Shown here: positions 17,879 to 22,495 of the stretch, piece by piece
How the letters are laid out: every line of letters starts with the position of its first letter
Position numbering within the stretch: position 1 is the first letter of the stretch
DNA from: Polychytrium aggregatum
Taxonomy: Eukaryota; Chytridiomycota; Chytridiomycetes; Polychytriales
Direction of reading: 5' to 3'
Length of the DNA: 64,000 nucleotides
NCBI RefSeq assembly: GCF_025602895.1
Contig: NW_026516250.1
Span: 186,001-250,000, forward strand
Program-made: the position numbers and the translations under genes
Notes under the pieces: model-generated
The model's database searches: none
Told to the model about the DNA's origin: nothing
Seen by the model: only the letters and a program-made list of their open reading frames with translations

Positions 17879-20800
17879 TCACCGGAGCCACCTGAGCAGC
17901 CCCTGGAGCATGCCTAACGGCGACTGCTGGGCCTCGGCCCTGGCTGCCCGATGTGCCGCGCGGTCATCAAAATAGATCCTCATTTCCTGCCGGACCTCTG
18001 GGGTTTCGAGATAGATTGGCTTGGGAAGGAGCAGAGTCAGTATAGGTCGGGGAGTCACAGTAGAGGCACGACAGAATCCAACTTACGAGGATGATGGCGG
18101 GGAAGAGCTTGACGATAATCATGCCGCCCGAAAAAGTTGGTCGCTGATGTTTCCGATCGCCGTGGAGAGCATGTGGAACTTTGAGGTTGTGAATGCCATG
18201 ACGAAACCATTGTGATGCGGAGCCCACTTCGACCCACTCGGATGGTGTTGACGGAGTGGAAGCCGCAATGAAGCCACTGGAGCTTTGGCGAGATCGAACA
18301 AACTCATGACCCCGACGGACCCAGACGATTTCATCGCCGCCCAGATCACGAGACAGAATCGTCGCATCATCAGGCGAAATGGAAACCGAGAGGATATCGT
18401 GGGTGTGACCGACCAGGGTTTGCTTCATCCTACCCGTAATGGCGTCCCATATCTTGATGGTCTCATCCCGAGAGGCAGAGGCAATCCATCTGCCTTCCAG
18501 TGCAGTGGCGACTGAGAGCACGTCACCGGTGTGTCTTTCGAGTGACTGGGAAGCCTTGCCCGCGGCTATTTCCCACACCTTGATGATCTCGTCCCGGAAT
18601 CCTGAGACAATCCACCTGCTGTCTGGTGAGATCGACAAGCTGTAAACACTGGCGATCTGTCCCTCGAGAGTGTACTTCAGTTGCCAGGTAGCAACATCCC
18701 ATATGTTGATACTGCCGTCAGTGCAGCCAGAAGCAATCCACTTGTGATCCGGCGAGGCCACCACCGACCACACAGCGTCTCTGTGGCCCTCGAGGGTATG
18801 CCTCGCCTGGCCAGTGGTTGCATCCCACACCTTGGCGGTATGATCACTGGAGCCGGAGACAATCCACTGGCCATCGGGCGAGATTGCCACGGAGTTGACT
18901 GCTCCTTTGTGCCCCTCGAGGGTGTGTTGCACTTGACCCGTGGTGGCATCCCAAACCTTGATGGTGCTATCGTGCGAGCCCGAGACGATCCACTCCCCAT
19001 TGGGTGCTACCGCCACGGAGGACACATTCCATATGTGTCCTTCGAGGGTGTGCTTCAGCTGGCCCGAGGCGGCATCCCACACCTTGATGGTCTTATCGCT
19101 GGAAGCAGAGGCAATCCGCTTGCCGTCGGGTGAGATAGCAACGGAGTTCACACTACCTGCGTGTCCTTCAAGGGTGAACTTCAACTGACCCGTGGTGGCA
19201 TCCCAGACCTTGATAGAATTATCGCGAGAACCAGAGGTGATCCATCGTCCGTCAGGCGATATAGCCACGGACTTGACTGATCCTGTGTGTCCCTCAAGGG
19301 TATGCTTCGCTTGGCCCGTAGCGGCATCCCATACCCTTAGAGTTGAGTCGTTTGAGCCAGAGATAATGCACTTGCCATCAAGCGAAGTCGCCACAGAGTT
19401 AACTGCGTAGGTGTGTCCAGTGAGTGTCATCACACACGGATCCCAGGTGGGTGCTGGGCCGGCCGTGACCAGGAACGGGATCTTGTCCTCGAGTTGGTCG
19501 GCATATGTCTTGTAGATCGCCGTCTCCTTCGGTGTGAATGCATACCCCGAGTTGTACACCTGTGGTGCACTCTTGATGATCGGATCGGCAAACTCGCGGA
19601 TGAATCGATACGTGTCCTTGACCAGTTCCTTCGTGGTGTCGTCGAAGATGGTGCTGGGTGCCATGTTGGTCACTCCTCGGAGCACAGCCAGTTGCCCGAT
19701 GATCGGCTCGACCACATGTGTGAGCGACCCACACTCGAGCCAGAAGAGCACATGCGTCTTGACGAACCGAGTGAGCACCGCTGCCACATCGACCATCTCG
19801 GCCGACTGCCACACCGGACTCGACTCGGCCACTCCTTCCACACACCACACAAAGTGTGTGATCCAGTGGGCGACGCTGTATCGCAGCGACGGTGTGATCT
19901 TGGCTGCGACTCTGTCCTCGAGGTCTGGGATCTTGTCGTGAAAGTCGAAGATCTCGCAGATGTTGATCACTGGCTCGTGCGAGAGGATCACTCCGAGACA
20001 TCCCTTGGCAAACACCGTGTGGAACGAGTCCGACACATGCCACGGATGGCCAGTCGATGTATCGCCGAGGAGATAGTCCGCCACCGACTTGTGGTTGAAC
20101 TTGACCTCGGTGTTGGTGGACTGGCTGCCTCGGGGACCCAGTCCATTGGCGCCAGGATCGAGGACCAGACTGAGGCTCTTGAGACACTCGCGAACGACGC
20201 CGATCTCGAGTCCAAACACATCGGCGATGATCTGCGGTGTCAGGATCGACTGGGCCGTGGCGATTGCCGACACCACCGTGACCAGCTCGGCCGGGTGGCT
20301 CGACTGCGAGTGGATCTTGGCGAATGTCTTGTGGTACAGCTGGCCGACATCGGCGGCGCTGTCGTTGATGTCCTTGATCGTGGCGAGTGTCACTGGGCCG
20401 TCCTTGGCTGCTGAATCGACGGTGTTGAGGATCAGGTTGATCCACACGAATGTCTTGGACTGGTCCAGCAGGATGGCGACTGCTTCGGTGCGGTCCGAGT
20501 CACTGAGAGTGCCGTGCACTAGCAGTCGGTGGAGGATGAACACCTCGAGGTCACGGATGTTCTCCTCGCTCGAGGGTTCGATTGTCTTGGTTGGCACTCC
20601 ATCGAATGCTGCCTTGATGTCGTCCTCGGGTCGGGATGTCAGCAGCAGCTTGAGCCACGGACGGGTCTTGTTCAGTTCGACGAAGCGCACGGCAAGCAGA
20701 CTGAGCAGCTGATCGCGCGGAGAGCACTCGTCGAGTGCATCCACCAGGATCATCACCGATCCCTTGGGTCTGTAGTCGCCGATGGCTTCGAGTGGATCGG

Positions 20801-22495
20801 CAATCACGGCCTTGAACAGTTCGGGGATGCTCATCTTGTCGAGGTCGTCCTTGGTGTGGCCAGCCTCGAGCAACTTGCGGCCGATCGGTGAGTACCACTT
20901 GCACAGTCCATATGCGATGGTATTCAGCACCACTCGTGGATCGCTCTTGCGGATGTCGTTGTACTTGAGGAACAGCGCCGACACCAGCTGGTTGCTGGCT
21001 GTGAGGATGTTGGCGATCTGGGCGGCAGCGACAGACTTCCCCACTCCAGCAACGGCATTGACCCACAGGACAGTGTCGGCGGTGTCCTGGTTGACCCAGT
21101 CGGTGGTCTGGTTGAACAGCCAATGACGGGTACCCTCGACATACAGATCCTCGAGTGCACGTCTGTCCGTAGTGGAGTCGACAGGATCGAGGAGGGATCG
21201 CAGGAGCGAGTCTTGTTCTTTGGTGAGCTGGATGGGACTATCCTTGTGGTATGTTGCTCCTTGATCTGCAGCAGTCTTGGTCTTGGTGATCAGGTTTCGG
21301 ATACTGGGGACGAGCCTGGAGCGGACAGGTCAGGTCAGTATGGCCAAGATTCACTTTGGGTACATCAACAGGCTCCGGAATTCGAGCTACGATTCGTGCC
21401 ACTCTGATCTCTCTGACGAGCCATGCTCACCTCTTGAGGGCCTTGGTATCGGAGGCGTCGAGAGCCTGGAGTTTCATCAGCTCCTGGATTGTCTGTTCGA
21501 TCGTCATTGGGCGTCCGTCAAACAATGGGCTCTGCCTATGGATTGGGATGTATTTCGGAAAGTCGCTCACAGGCGGAAAATACTTGATCAACGCTTTTCT
21601 CCCGTCGCTCGTGGTCACTGACGACCACATGAAGATCGGCTGTACGATGACCGGTTGGCCGGCGATGTCTCCATCCTTGATACGCTTGAGAGCGTGCTGG
21701 ATCTGAGATGTACACGAGAGAGGGTGAGTTCGTCTTGCGTTTAACCATATCCACGAGCCTTCGGCGACGATTGCTAGATTTACTACCTCGAGTAACTGGT
21801 TGTCTGGCTTGTTATGGGCCTCGAGGGTGCGCTTCAAGCCCTCCTCGGAGAGTAGCAACACTATCACACTCGACCGATACAGCCCGTTGATGAAGCCTTT
21901 CTCCCAGTCATTGCCGTCACAGAGACAGAGGCTGTCGAGATAGGGATGAATCACCACCTCACTCCGACTGTTGGCTGCCAGAGCGCCATGGAGGGCGGTG
22001 GCTTTGTCAGCCTCGCTACTGACTCGATAGCTGGATGGACGGGTCAACATGTCTGGAGTGTGAGTTTGGGGGGGGGGCGGTTTGTGATGACAAGCACGAC
22101 CGCATCACCGACCTGATGAACACATCGTGGGTCTGAAAGTCCTTCTGACATCGCCATTCTTCATTAGGAGTCGCCGGTGTATACTCTTGAAAATCCAACA
22201 CCCGGATTGGTGGGGCGATAATCGGTTGGTGGCTTGAAGAGTCCGTTTGCCTGTGCTGCTGATGAGCCTTCCGTATCCGAACCTTGCCCCCCAAATCAAG
22301 ACCAGCCTCTTGCATGTCTGCTTCCGACAAGCTGAGGATCTAGAGAATATGGATGTGAGCTTGGAGCAGCTACGTCACTGCACTATGGCCAAAGCGGCGA
22401 CTCACCAGGTCGGCTCGATCAAGGCCGTTTGCAAGGAACTTGTCCTTGTACCTGACCAGGTCTGCCTTCTCGAGGAACTCGTCGAGAGCATCCAT
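17879..22495 (-). CDS. SAM-TIR-NACHT-WD40 NLR-like (STAND) protein
   Basis: Five exons join exactly in phase: 22495-22406, 22339-22113, 22030-21431, 21315-18087, 18019-17879 (4287 nt, 1428 aa). Residues 1-60 form a SAM-like domain (MDALDEFLEKADLVRYKDKF...). Residues 101 to about 260 form a TIR domain: HDVFISYRVSSEADKATALH, then GFINGLYRSSVIVLLLS. DNQLLEV places Glu187 where TIR NADases carry their catalytic Glu. NACHT follows: pre-domain YVEGTRHWLF, Walker A NAVAGVGKS (392-400), Walker B MILVDALDEC (about 496-503), sensor LLLTSRPE. Residues 936 to about 1310 hold nine WD40 repeats, most reading SVAISPDG..I.SGS.D..IKVWDATTGQ. The last exon adds a short hydrophobic-then-charged tail. STAND proteins of this plan (HET-E, NLRs) oligomerise after ligand sensing; here the WD40 propeller would be the sensor and TIR the effector. 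That role is inference; domains and gene structure are directly visible. Confidence 0.93.

Follow-up and report, generated by a model that had tools for sequence, protein, structure and literature searches.

The known systems close to the gene described here include the NACHT-WD40 proteins of the HNWD family in Podospora anserina (HET-E, HET-D and HET-R), and the SAM-TIR protein SARM1, which carries an ARM regulatory domain. According to passages of two HNWD studies, WD40 codons 7, 9, 25 and 27 are positively selected and map to the propeller's top face, with codons 7 and 9 in the inter-repeat loop and codons 25 and 27 in the b-c turn (PMC2873952, PMC1805685). In chytrids, passages of a 2014 survey report no nucleotide-binding leucine-rich repeat-type receptors (NLRs) (PMC4986451), TIR-bearing NLRs of Chytridiomycota are mentioned in a passage of PMC9815663, and a small fungal TIR-NLR group appears in a passage of PMC10197012; a term search of PMC7075850, cited as a chytrid source, found no chytrid. 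We analyzed a window of 64,000 nucleotides from Polychytrium aggregatum (Chytridiomycota, Polychytriales; contig NW_026516250.1, positions 186,001 to 250,000), whose minus strand, from 22495 to 17879 of the window, contains a gene predicted to encode a single protein with SAM, TIR, NACHT and nine WD40 repeats. The gene was considered to be probably a fungal receptor of the STAND (signal transduction ATPases with numerous domains) class and NLR type, with a WD40 sensor, a NACHT switch and a SAM-TIR effector, whose NACHT region is homogenised among paralogs, most likely by ectopic gene conversion. The features of the gene, all on the minus strand, were as follows.

22406 to 22495, minus strand: exon 1, which carries the start codon and the first part (half) of SAM (gene model; SAM_2 match).
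22113 to 22339, minus strand: exon 2, second half of SAM, linker and first TIR strand HDVFI (gene model; Pfam; conserved donor of intron 2).
21787 to 22030, minus strand: exon 3, TIR, its last residue being the putative catalytic Glu187 (gene model; intron comparison; SARM1 alignment).
21703 to 21786, minus strand: intron 3, 84 nt and in phase (GT-AG in paralogs; gain in TIR_2 score on removal).
21431 to 21702, minus strand: exon 4, remainder of TIR and the segment after it (gene model; paralog comparison).
18087 to 21315, minus strand: exon 5, a single exon with NACHT, helical linker and nine WD40 repeats (Pfam; structure model).
17879 to 18019, minus strand: exon 6, short and C-terminal, less certain than the other parts (gene model; paralog L055).
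22292 to 22489, minus strand: SAM domain, residues 3-46, split by intron 1 (SAM_2; family profile).
21640 to 22123, minus strand: TIR domain, residues 103-208, split by introns 2 and 3 (TIR_2; family profile; fold of relative P0023).
21787 to 21789, minus strand: Glu187, aligned with the Glu of the SARM1 motif KEI (profile alignment; paralogs).
20631 to 21134, minus strand: NACHT core (NPHP3_N), with Walker A GVGKS at 21033-21047 (Pfam; paralogs).
18340 to 19440, minus strand: nine WD40 repeats forming a predicted beta-propeller with variable surface codons, ends approximate (Pfam; propeller fold; variable codons).
19455 to 21195, minus strand: homogenised block, ends approximate (mostly 90-99% DNA identity to paralogs, diverged on both sides).

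The homogenised block was compared across 30 loci, namely the window gene, the second copy of its locus and 28 others, which were the best 30 by NACHT score and carried 22 distinct TIR sequences. The window locus is present twice in the assembly, on C362 and on C168 (the copy L032), with matching flanks. DNA identity to the window gene was approximately 30-77% ahead of the block, mostly 90-99% inside it over about 1.7 kb, and approximately 30-81% beyond it; the lowest 150-nt steps inside the block, in a few loci, were at 76-88%. At the protein level, NACHT identity was 88-96% and the SAM and TIR pieces showed 21-80%, except in L032 (these values are from tblastn pieces, some of them partial or missing). 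Synonymous divergence (dS) from the window gene was 0.12-0.22 for NACHT in the 28 loci and 0.07 in L032, and for TIR exon 3 it ranged from 0.70 to saturated in the same 28 loci. Among all pairs, the 395 of 435 with TIR exon 3 dS above 0.3 or saturated were kept. Their median dS was 0.19 for NACHT and 0.13 for the linker, and 1.2 and 1.6 for the two TIR exons and 1.8 for the SAM-linker exon, each of the last three having 94-106 saturated pairs. NACHT DNA identity, with the first 60 codons excluded, averaged 0.93-0.95 in every TIR-identity class from below 0.5 up to 0.9 (435 pairs). A near-identical NACHT block between diverged ends points to ectopic gene conversion.

One locus, L054, displayed the contrast between the two parts clearly. 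Its TIR was 42-52% identical to 11 other P. aggregatum TIRs and 50-55% to those of Chytriomyces, and it was grouped with Chytriomyces in the TIR tree at 93/88. Its NACHT was 94% identical to that of the window gene and 54% to that of Chytriomyces hyalinus. Two genes of Chytriomyces sp. MP71 showed no block effect, with 51% identity in TIR and 50% in NACHT.

The site patterns within the block were compared to star trees, using 12 distinct loci and expectations taken as means over five rate settings. Shared two-state sites numbered 114 in 1600 against 50-58 expected, and three-state sites numbered 39 against 69-123 expected. This two-state excess with a three-state deficit is better accounted for by exchange among the copies than by parallel mutation. 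Furthermore, G+C at third positions was higher and far less variable in NACHT (0.764, standard deviation 0.009) than in the TIR exons (0.67, standard deviation 0.055-0.097), which is what biased conversion is expected to produce. The two copies of the window locus were also informative. L032 differed from the window gene at 48 sites, of which 46 fell at locus coordinates 1587-3135 (3.0%) and the others at 1093 and 3913, with none in the first 1092 bases; the 4.2 kb flank of the two copies held 21 substitutions and one length-variable repeat. At 36 of the 46 block differences, both states were seen among the 28 other loci, compared to 485 of 4647 (10%) for a random alternative base and 286 of 1549 (18%) for a transition. 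Based on these patterns, homogenisation of NACHT among dispersed paralogs by ectopic gene conversion is the most likely explanation of the block.

Several results weigh against this explanation or limit it. The choice of the 30 best NACHT matches itself favors high NACHT identity. Incompatible sites were not significantly clustered along the block in a test resembling the pairwise homoplasy index, since 262 of 1000 shuffles were at or below the observed value. The four-gamete condition failed in 54% of block site pairs, no higher than the 63% in the TIR exons, where failure is attributed to recurrent mutation at saturated sites. For L054, the approximately unbiased test did not reject a single clade of all P. 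aggregatum TIRs (p 0.109). The unclustered incompatible sites would also suit another origin, in which a single NACHT cassette, with or without the linker, underwent recent duplication, exon shuffling attached it to older ends, and no conversion continues. The sharp edges of the block, close to where exon 5 and the WD40 array begin, the star-like NACHT tree, and the presence of a neighboring reductase family in about 40 copies at 81-89% identity, which makes recent gene spread common in this genome, are in line with it. However, a star tree does not give the surplus of shared two-state sites and the shortage of three-state sites, and the two copies of the window locus differ mainly within the block, so that we regard this origin as rather unlikely. 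Short-read polishing that mixed paralogous reads may have created part of the pattern, since mis-mapped reads would leave scattered differences that mostly agree with other paralogs, as those of L032 do. Polishing, however, cannot make a middle of about 94% identity between genes whose synonymous sites are saturated to either side of it, and the block was found in all 29 other loci compared. As an account of the pattern it is therefore very improbable; it could account for how the two copies differ, though not for the block itself. A transposable element carrying NACHT was set aside, since in the 30 loci seen the block occupies one fixed position within the same protein.

Among 88 distinct WD40 units, positions 7, 25, 6, 9 and 27 were the most variable, with position 41 close after. 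We read the registers of the chytrid units and HNWD as coinciding, because positions 7 and 9 and positions 25 and 27 occupy the loop and the b-c turn in the chytrid units also. The ratio of nonsynonymous to synonymous polymorphism (pN/pS) was 1.22 at codons 7, 9, 25 and 27 and 0.28 at the others, codon 6 being excluded from these as well; the values come from 194 pairs with identities of 80 to less than 100%, drawn from 87 distinct DNA units, and the pairs are not independent. None of 10,000 random sets of four codons reached the pN of codons 7, 9, 25 and 27.

The family was then counted in the assembly of 64.7 Mb and 418 contigs. A NACHT search gave 93 matches; manual merging reduced these to 86 loci, spread over 62 contigs, and this large dispersed family ruled out a single odd gene. 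For 74 of the 86 loci, the 150 TIR matches listed of 194 included a same-strand TIR exon no more than 3 kb upstream. Nine further loci with an upstream TIR exon were recognized by eye, giving 83 of 86. The three loci for which no upstream TIR exon was found were two on C179 and C334:1038379. The two C179 copies (599704-601176 and 613269-614741) are in opposite orientation 12 kb apart, and one of them lies within an open frame of 2342 amino acids; a weak TIR_2 match is located at 596708-597082. Since the window locus is doubled and other matches also occur in like pairs, the haploid family size is probably about half of 86. Another variant, at L063-L065 (C57:39509-40900, matching the annotated protein P0023), has two tandem SAMs ahead of the TIR, as in SARM1. 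In L060 (C57:272094-276575), neither the Walker A lysine (GVDMS) nor the catalytic Glu of the TIR (Gln) is retained, and this paralog is possibly a dead or decoy copy.

This family is apparently unannotated in P. aggregatum. Protein searches were performed with residues 1-480 against relatives of about 770-2450 amino acids and with the NACHT part against those of about 345-1100 amino acids, the candidates being those with the most shared words. Among the approximately 8000 candidates scored in each search, no annotated P. aggregatum NACHT protein of the family and no match above 65% identity was found. Repeat masking before annotation would explain these missing proteins.

The gene model was examined by comparing introns 2, 3 and 4 among the 30 loci. 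The initial annotation had joined five exons in phase (22495-22406, 22339-22113, 22030-21431, 21315-18087 and 18019-17879) into 1428 amino acids. Its frame is open and its length was reproduced exactly, but it counted the intron at 21786-21703 as coding. This intron 3 is stop-free in the window gene, has GT-AG ends and cuts the TIR directly after Glu187. At this position, 30 of 30 loci have an intron with GT-AG ends, 61 to 193 nt long; retaining it would cause a frameshift or add stops in 24 of 30, and a coding reading was therefore ruled out. The Chytriomyces homologues continue without interruption over the junction, where that of Chytriomyces hyalinus reads NQLLEIELAL. Removal of the intron raised the TIR_2 score from 20.9 to 24.9 bits and extended the match from residues 103-173 to 103-208. 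Because this in-phase intron of 84 nt had been read as coding, the model was corrected to six exons and 1400 amino acids with SAM, TIR, NACHT and nine WD40 repeats, which is the better gene model. For intron 2, the donor GT was at the matching place in 30 of 30 loci and the acceptor in 29 of 30 (the exception being L058). The last intron (18086-18020, GTAAGT...AAG) and the last exon were supported by one paralog, L055, which has a similar exon after the intron (PIYLNTPEIR).

The Pfam profile searches that the initial annotation had proposed bore out its domain set, and its fungal host was also correct. SAM_2 scored 25.7 bits (cut-off 20.5), NPHP3_N, a NACHT-type P-loop domain, scored 94.7 bits (cut-off 24.8), and WD40 matched nine stretches of the protein. 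The NACHT part has the NTPase motifs GVGKS (Walker A) and ILVDALDE (Walker B), and Walker A GKS was kept in 29 of 30 loci. In a phmmer search against PDB, the NACHT part gave no match at E 0.01. The structure model of the NACHT-WD40 part had a mean predicted local distance difference test score (pLDDT) of 79.9 and a propeller fold; propellers filled the matches listed by VIA-align for this model. In the N-terminal part, five Pfam families matched at E up to 1, all of them SAM or TIR, and no HET domain was among them. The SAM begins at residue 3 with nothing ahead of it, so that no ARM autoinhibitory domain precedes it; the SAM part of the family profile matched Caskin and Eph SAMs in PDB.

A TIR profile match, whose absence would have counted against the initial annotation, was found for the window gene (E 3.2e-5) and for all 14 members of the family alignment at E up to 0.01, with a best value of 4.6e-11. 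When the family profile was searched against PDB at E up to 0.1, SARM1 and TIR-1 were the sole TIR chains to match, a TIR-only SARM1 chain reaching 2.6e-6. These matches and the aligned Glu agreed with the proposed resemblance to the SAM-TIR effector half of SARM1. The structure model of the relative P0023 has a flavodoxin-like TIR fold, and the 50 matches listed by VIA-align contain TIR or SEFIR domains. The putative catalytic Glu187, the counterpart of the helix C Glu of SARM1-type NAD+ hydrolases, was kept in 28 of 30 loci. On the other side, the window gene's own TIR_2 score is below the Pfam cut-off of 28 bits, and Foldseek E-values for the TIR part were only 0.01-0.2. Judged by the profile matches, the modelled fold of the relative P0023 and the paralogs, the TIR domain is real, and a chance match was ruled out.

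Whether SAM-TIR and NACHT-WD40 belong to one gene was assessed from the join at intron 4 and from relatives. The position at which intron 4 joins the frames matched in 29 of 30 loci and was shifted only in L058. P0001 of Chytriomyces hyalinus is a single predicted protein across the join (43% identity over 99% of residues 1-480), P0002 and P0003 of Chytriomyces sp. MP71 are also predicted as single proteins over it, and so are P0008 of Quaeritorhiza haematococci and P0009 of Rhizophlyctis rosea (31% over 80-81%), in which no SAM was noticed on inspection by eye. Thus, the architecture that the initial annotation had suggested seeking in other early-diverging fungi was found in full length in Chytriomyces, with TIR-NACHT-WD40 relatives in two other chytrids. 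Two adjacent genes, one SAM-TIR and one NACHT-WD40, joined by eye would be the contrary reading, and some results do lean that way. The sole annotated P. aggregatum relative found, P0023 (BJ171DRAFT_70077), is a SAM-SAM-TIR protein of 417 amino acids that ends inside the TIR, so that the fusion is not visible in the public annotation. Its pieces match C57:39509-40900 at 88-96%, in stretches running over splice sites. Three jgi matches, P0005-P0007, begin at or near NACHT, and for 15 of the 150 listed TIR matches, the 3 kb downstream contained no listed NACHT locus. Against these, the conserved join, the single predicted proteins of the four named chytrids and the upstream TIR exons at 83 of the 86 NACHT loci make separate genes extremely unlikely. 

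Two further observations were made among the relatives. By eye, P0001 has a second SAM-TIR after its WD40 repeats, which reflects either a neighboring gene model fused to it or a protein that truly has SAM-TIR at each end. Precomputed Pfam lists of P0057, P0073, P0074 and P0083 include both TIR and NPHP3_N, three of them also with TPR-type families.

By analogy with related receptors, a ligand or an altered host protein would bind the variable top face of the WD40 propeller, and NACHT would exchange nucleotide and then oligomerise. This may bring the SAM and TIR domains together, with SAM assisting TIR assembly, and the assembled TIR could cleave NAD+ via Glu187, leading to cell death or a nucleotide signal. 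In this scheme, the gene structure, the conserved domains and the size of the family are observed, and the functional steps from the sensing of a ligand through oligomerisation and cleavage of NAD+ to the death of the cell are inferred from relatives. The TIR may instead be a non-enzymatic scaffold, or make a signaling nucleotide rather than deplete NAD+. Many TIRs are scaffolds or makers of cyclic ADP-ribose according to a passage of PMC10197012, and the Glu is missing in 2 of the 30 loci. Its retention in the other 28, and the nearest solved TIRs by sequence, SARM1 and TIR-1, being named NAD+ hydrolases, leave this a possible but distinctly less probable role. A receptor for allorecognition or development rather than defense is somewhat doubtful, since tens of copies with variable sensor codons suit defense at least equally, and chytrids are not known for hyphal fusion between strains. 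What speaks for it is that the best-studied NACHT-WD40 genes, HET-E, HET-D and HET-R, govern heterokaryon incompatibility, as stated in passages of PMC1805685 and PMC2873952. A more speculative and quite unlikely extension of the receptor model is a combinatorial TIR-NLR system, in which conversion would keep one NACHT interchangeable among tens of receptors, and members with different SAM-TIR ends and WD40 sensors would co-assemble into mixed oligomers. If so, one activated sensor could recruit several effector ends.

Other features were seen around the receptor gene. A gene of the NAD_binding_4 (thioester-reductase) type neighbors it at 23938-25644 on the minus strand, and its stretch 24400-25600 matches about 40 genome places, mostly at 81-89% DNA identity, which indicates that other families have expanded in this genome too. 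A long five-base tandem repeat of the ACACC type lies at 23700-24000 and differs in length between the two locus copies. Beyond the 3' end of the receptor gene, reading frames resembling C2H2 zinc fingers were noticed by eye at 15090-16993 on the minus strand.

Within the literature searched, which covered few subscription papers, no report of the architecture, the family size or a homogenised switch between diverging ends was found. SAM, TIR, NACHT and WD40 in one fungal protein did not appear in the passages of PMC4986451, PMC9815663, PMC1805685, PMC2873952 and PMC10197012, nor in those of PMC7075850, PMC4852459, PMC12258605 and PMC7159879. The initial annotation had called TIR-bearing NLRs rarely described in fungi, which is fair, although those of Chytridiomycota were already mentioned in the passage of PMC9815663. 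Like the TIR-NLRs noted in these surveys, the window protein has an N-terminal TIR in a fungal NLR, and Chytridiomycota are named there; their passages give no SAM, family size or evolution for the chytrid cases (PMC9815663, PMC10197012). TIR-bearing chytrid NLRs had been mentioned in print, and what is new here is a homogenised NACHT between diverging SAM-TIR and WD40 ends. The 2014 survey found no NLRs in chytrids, and among the candidates scored in the two protein searches there was no P. aggregatum NACHT protein of this family, so that surveys based on proteomes may lack a whole receptor repertoire. In an early-diverging fungus, the gene unites in a single polypeptide a SAM-TIR effector like that of SARM1 and a receptor like HET-E, as part of a large repertoire and not as a curiosity.

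Like SARM1 and C. elegans TIR-1, the chytrid protein has SAM followed by TIR with an aligned Glu, and P0023 even has two SAMs. In contrast to SARM1, it has NACHT and WD40, its SAM is nearer in sequence to Caskin and Eph SAMs than to that of SARM1, and, because the ARM autoinhibitory domain is absent, it can be said to work like SARM1 but not to be a SARM1. The plant TIR-NLR Roq1 has NB-ARC and LRR where the chytrid protein has NACHT and WD40, and it is not known to have a SAM. In zebrafish NLR-B30.2 genes, as in this family, conversion acts differently on NACHT and sensor, and NACHT is alike within groups according to a passage of PMC4852459; however, those genes lie mostly on one chromosome arm and have other end domains, whereas the chytrid copies are dispersed over 62 contigs. 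HET-E, HET-D and HET-R share with the chytrid protein an N-terminal effector, a central NACHT and C-terminal WD40 repeats, with codons 7, 9, 25 and 27 among the most variable WD40 positions, but they have a HET domain in place of SAM-TIR. Furthermore, homogenisation in HNWD affects the WD40 repeats, and the NACHTs diverge more, as described in a passage of PMC1805685, whereas the chytrid family appears to homogenise NACHT. This reversal of the Podospora rule, with the switch homogenised and the sensor not, would give a direct handle on the drivers of conversion in NLR families.

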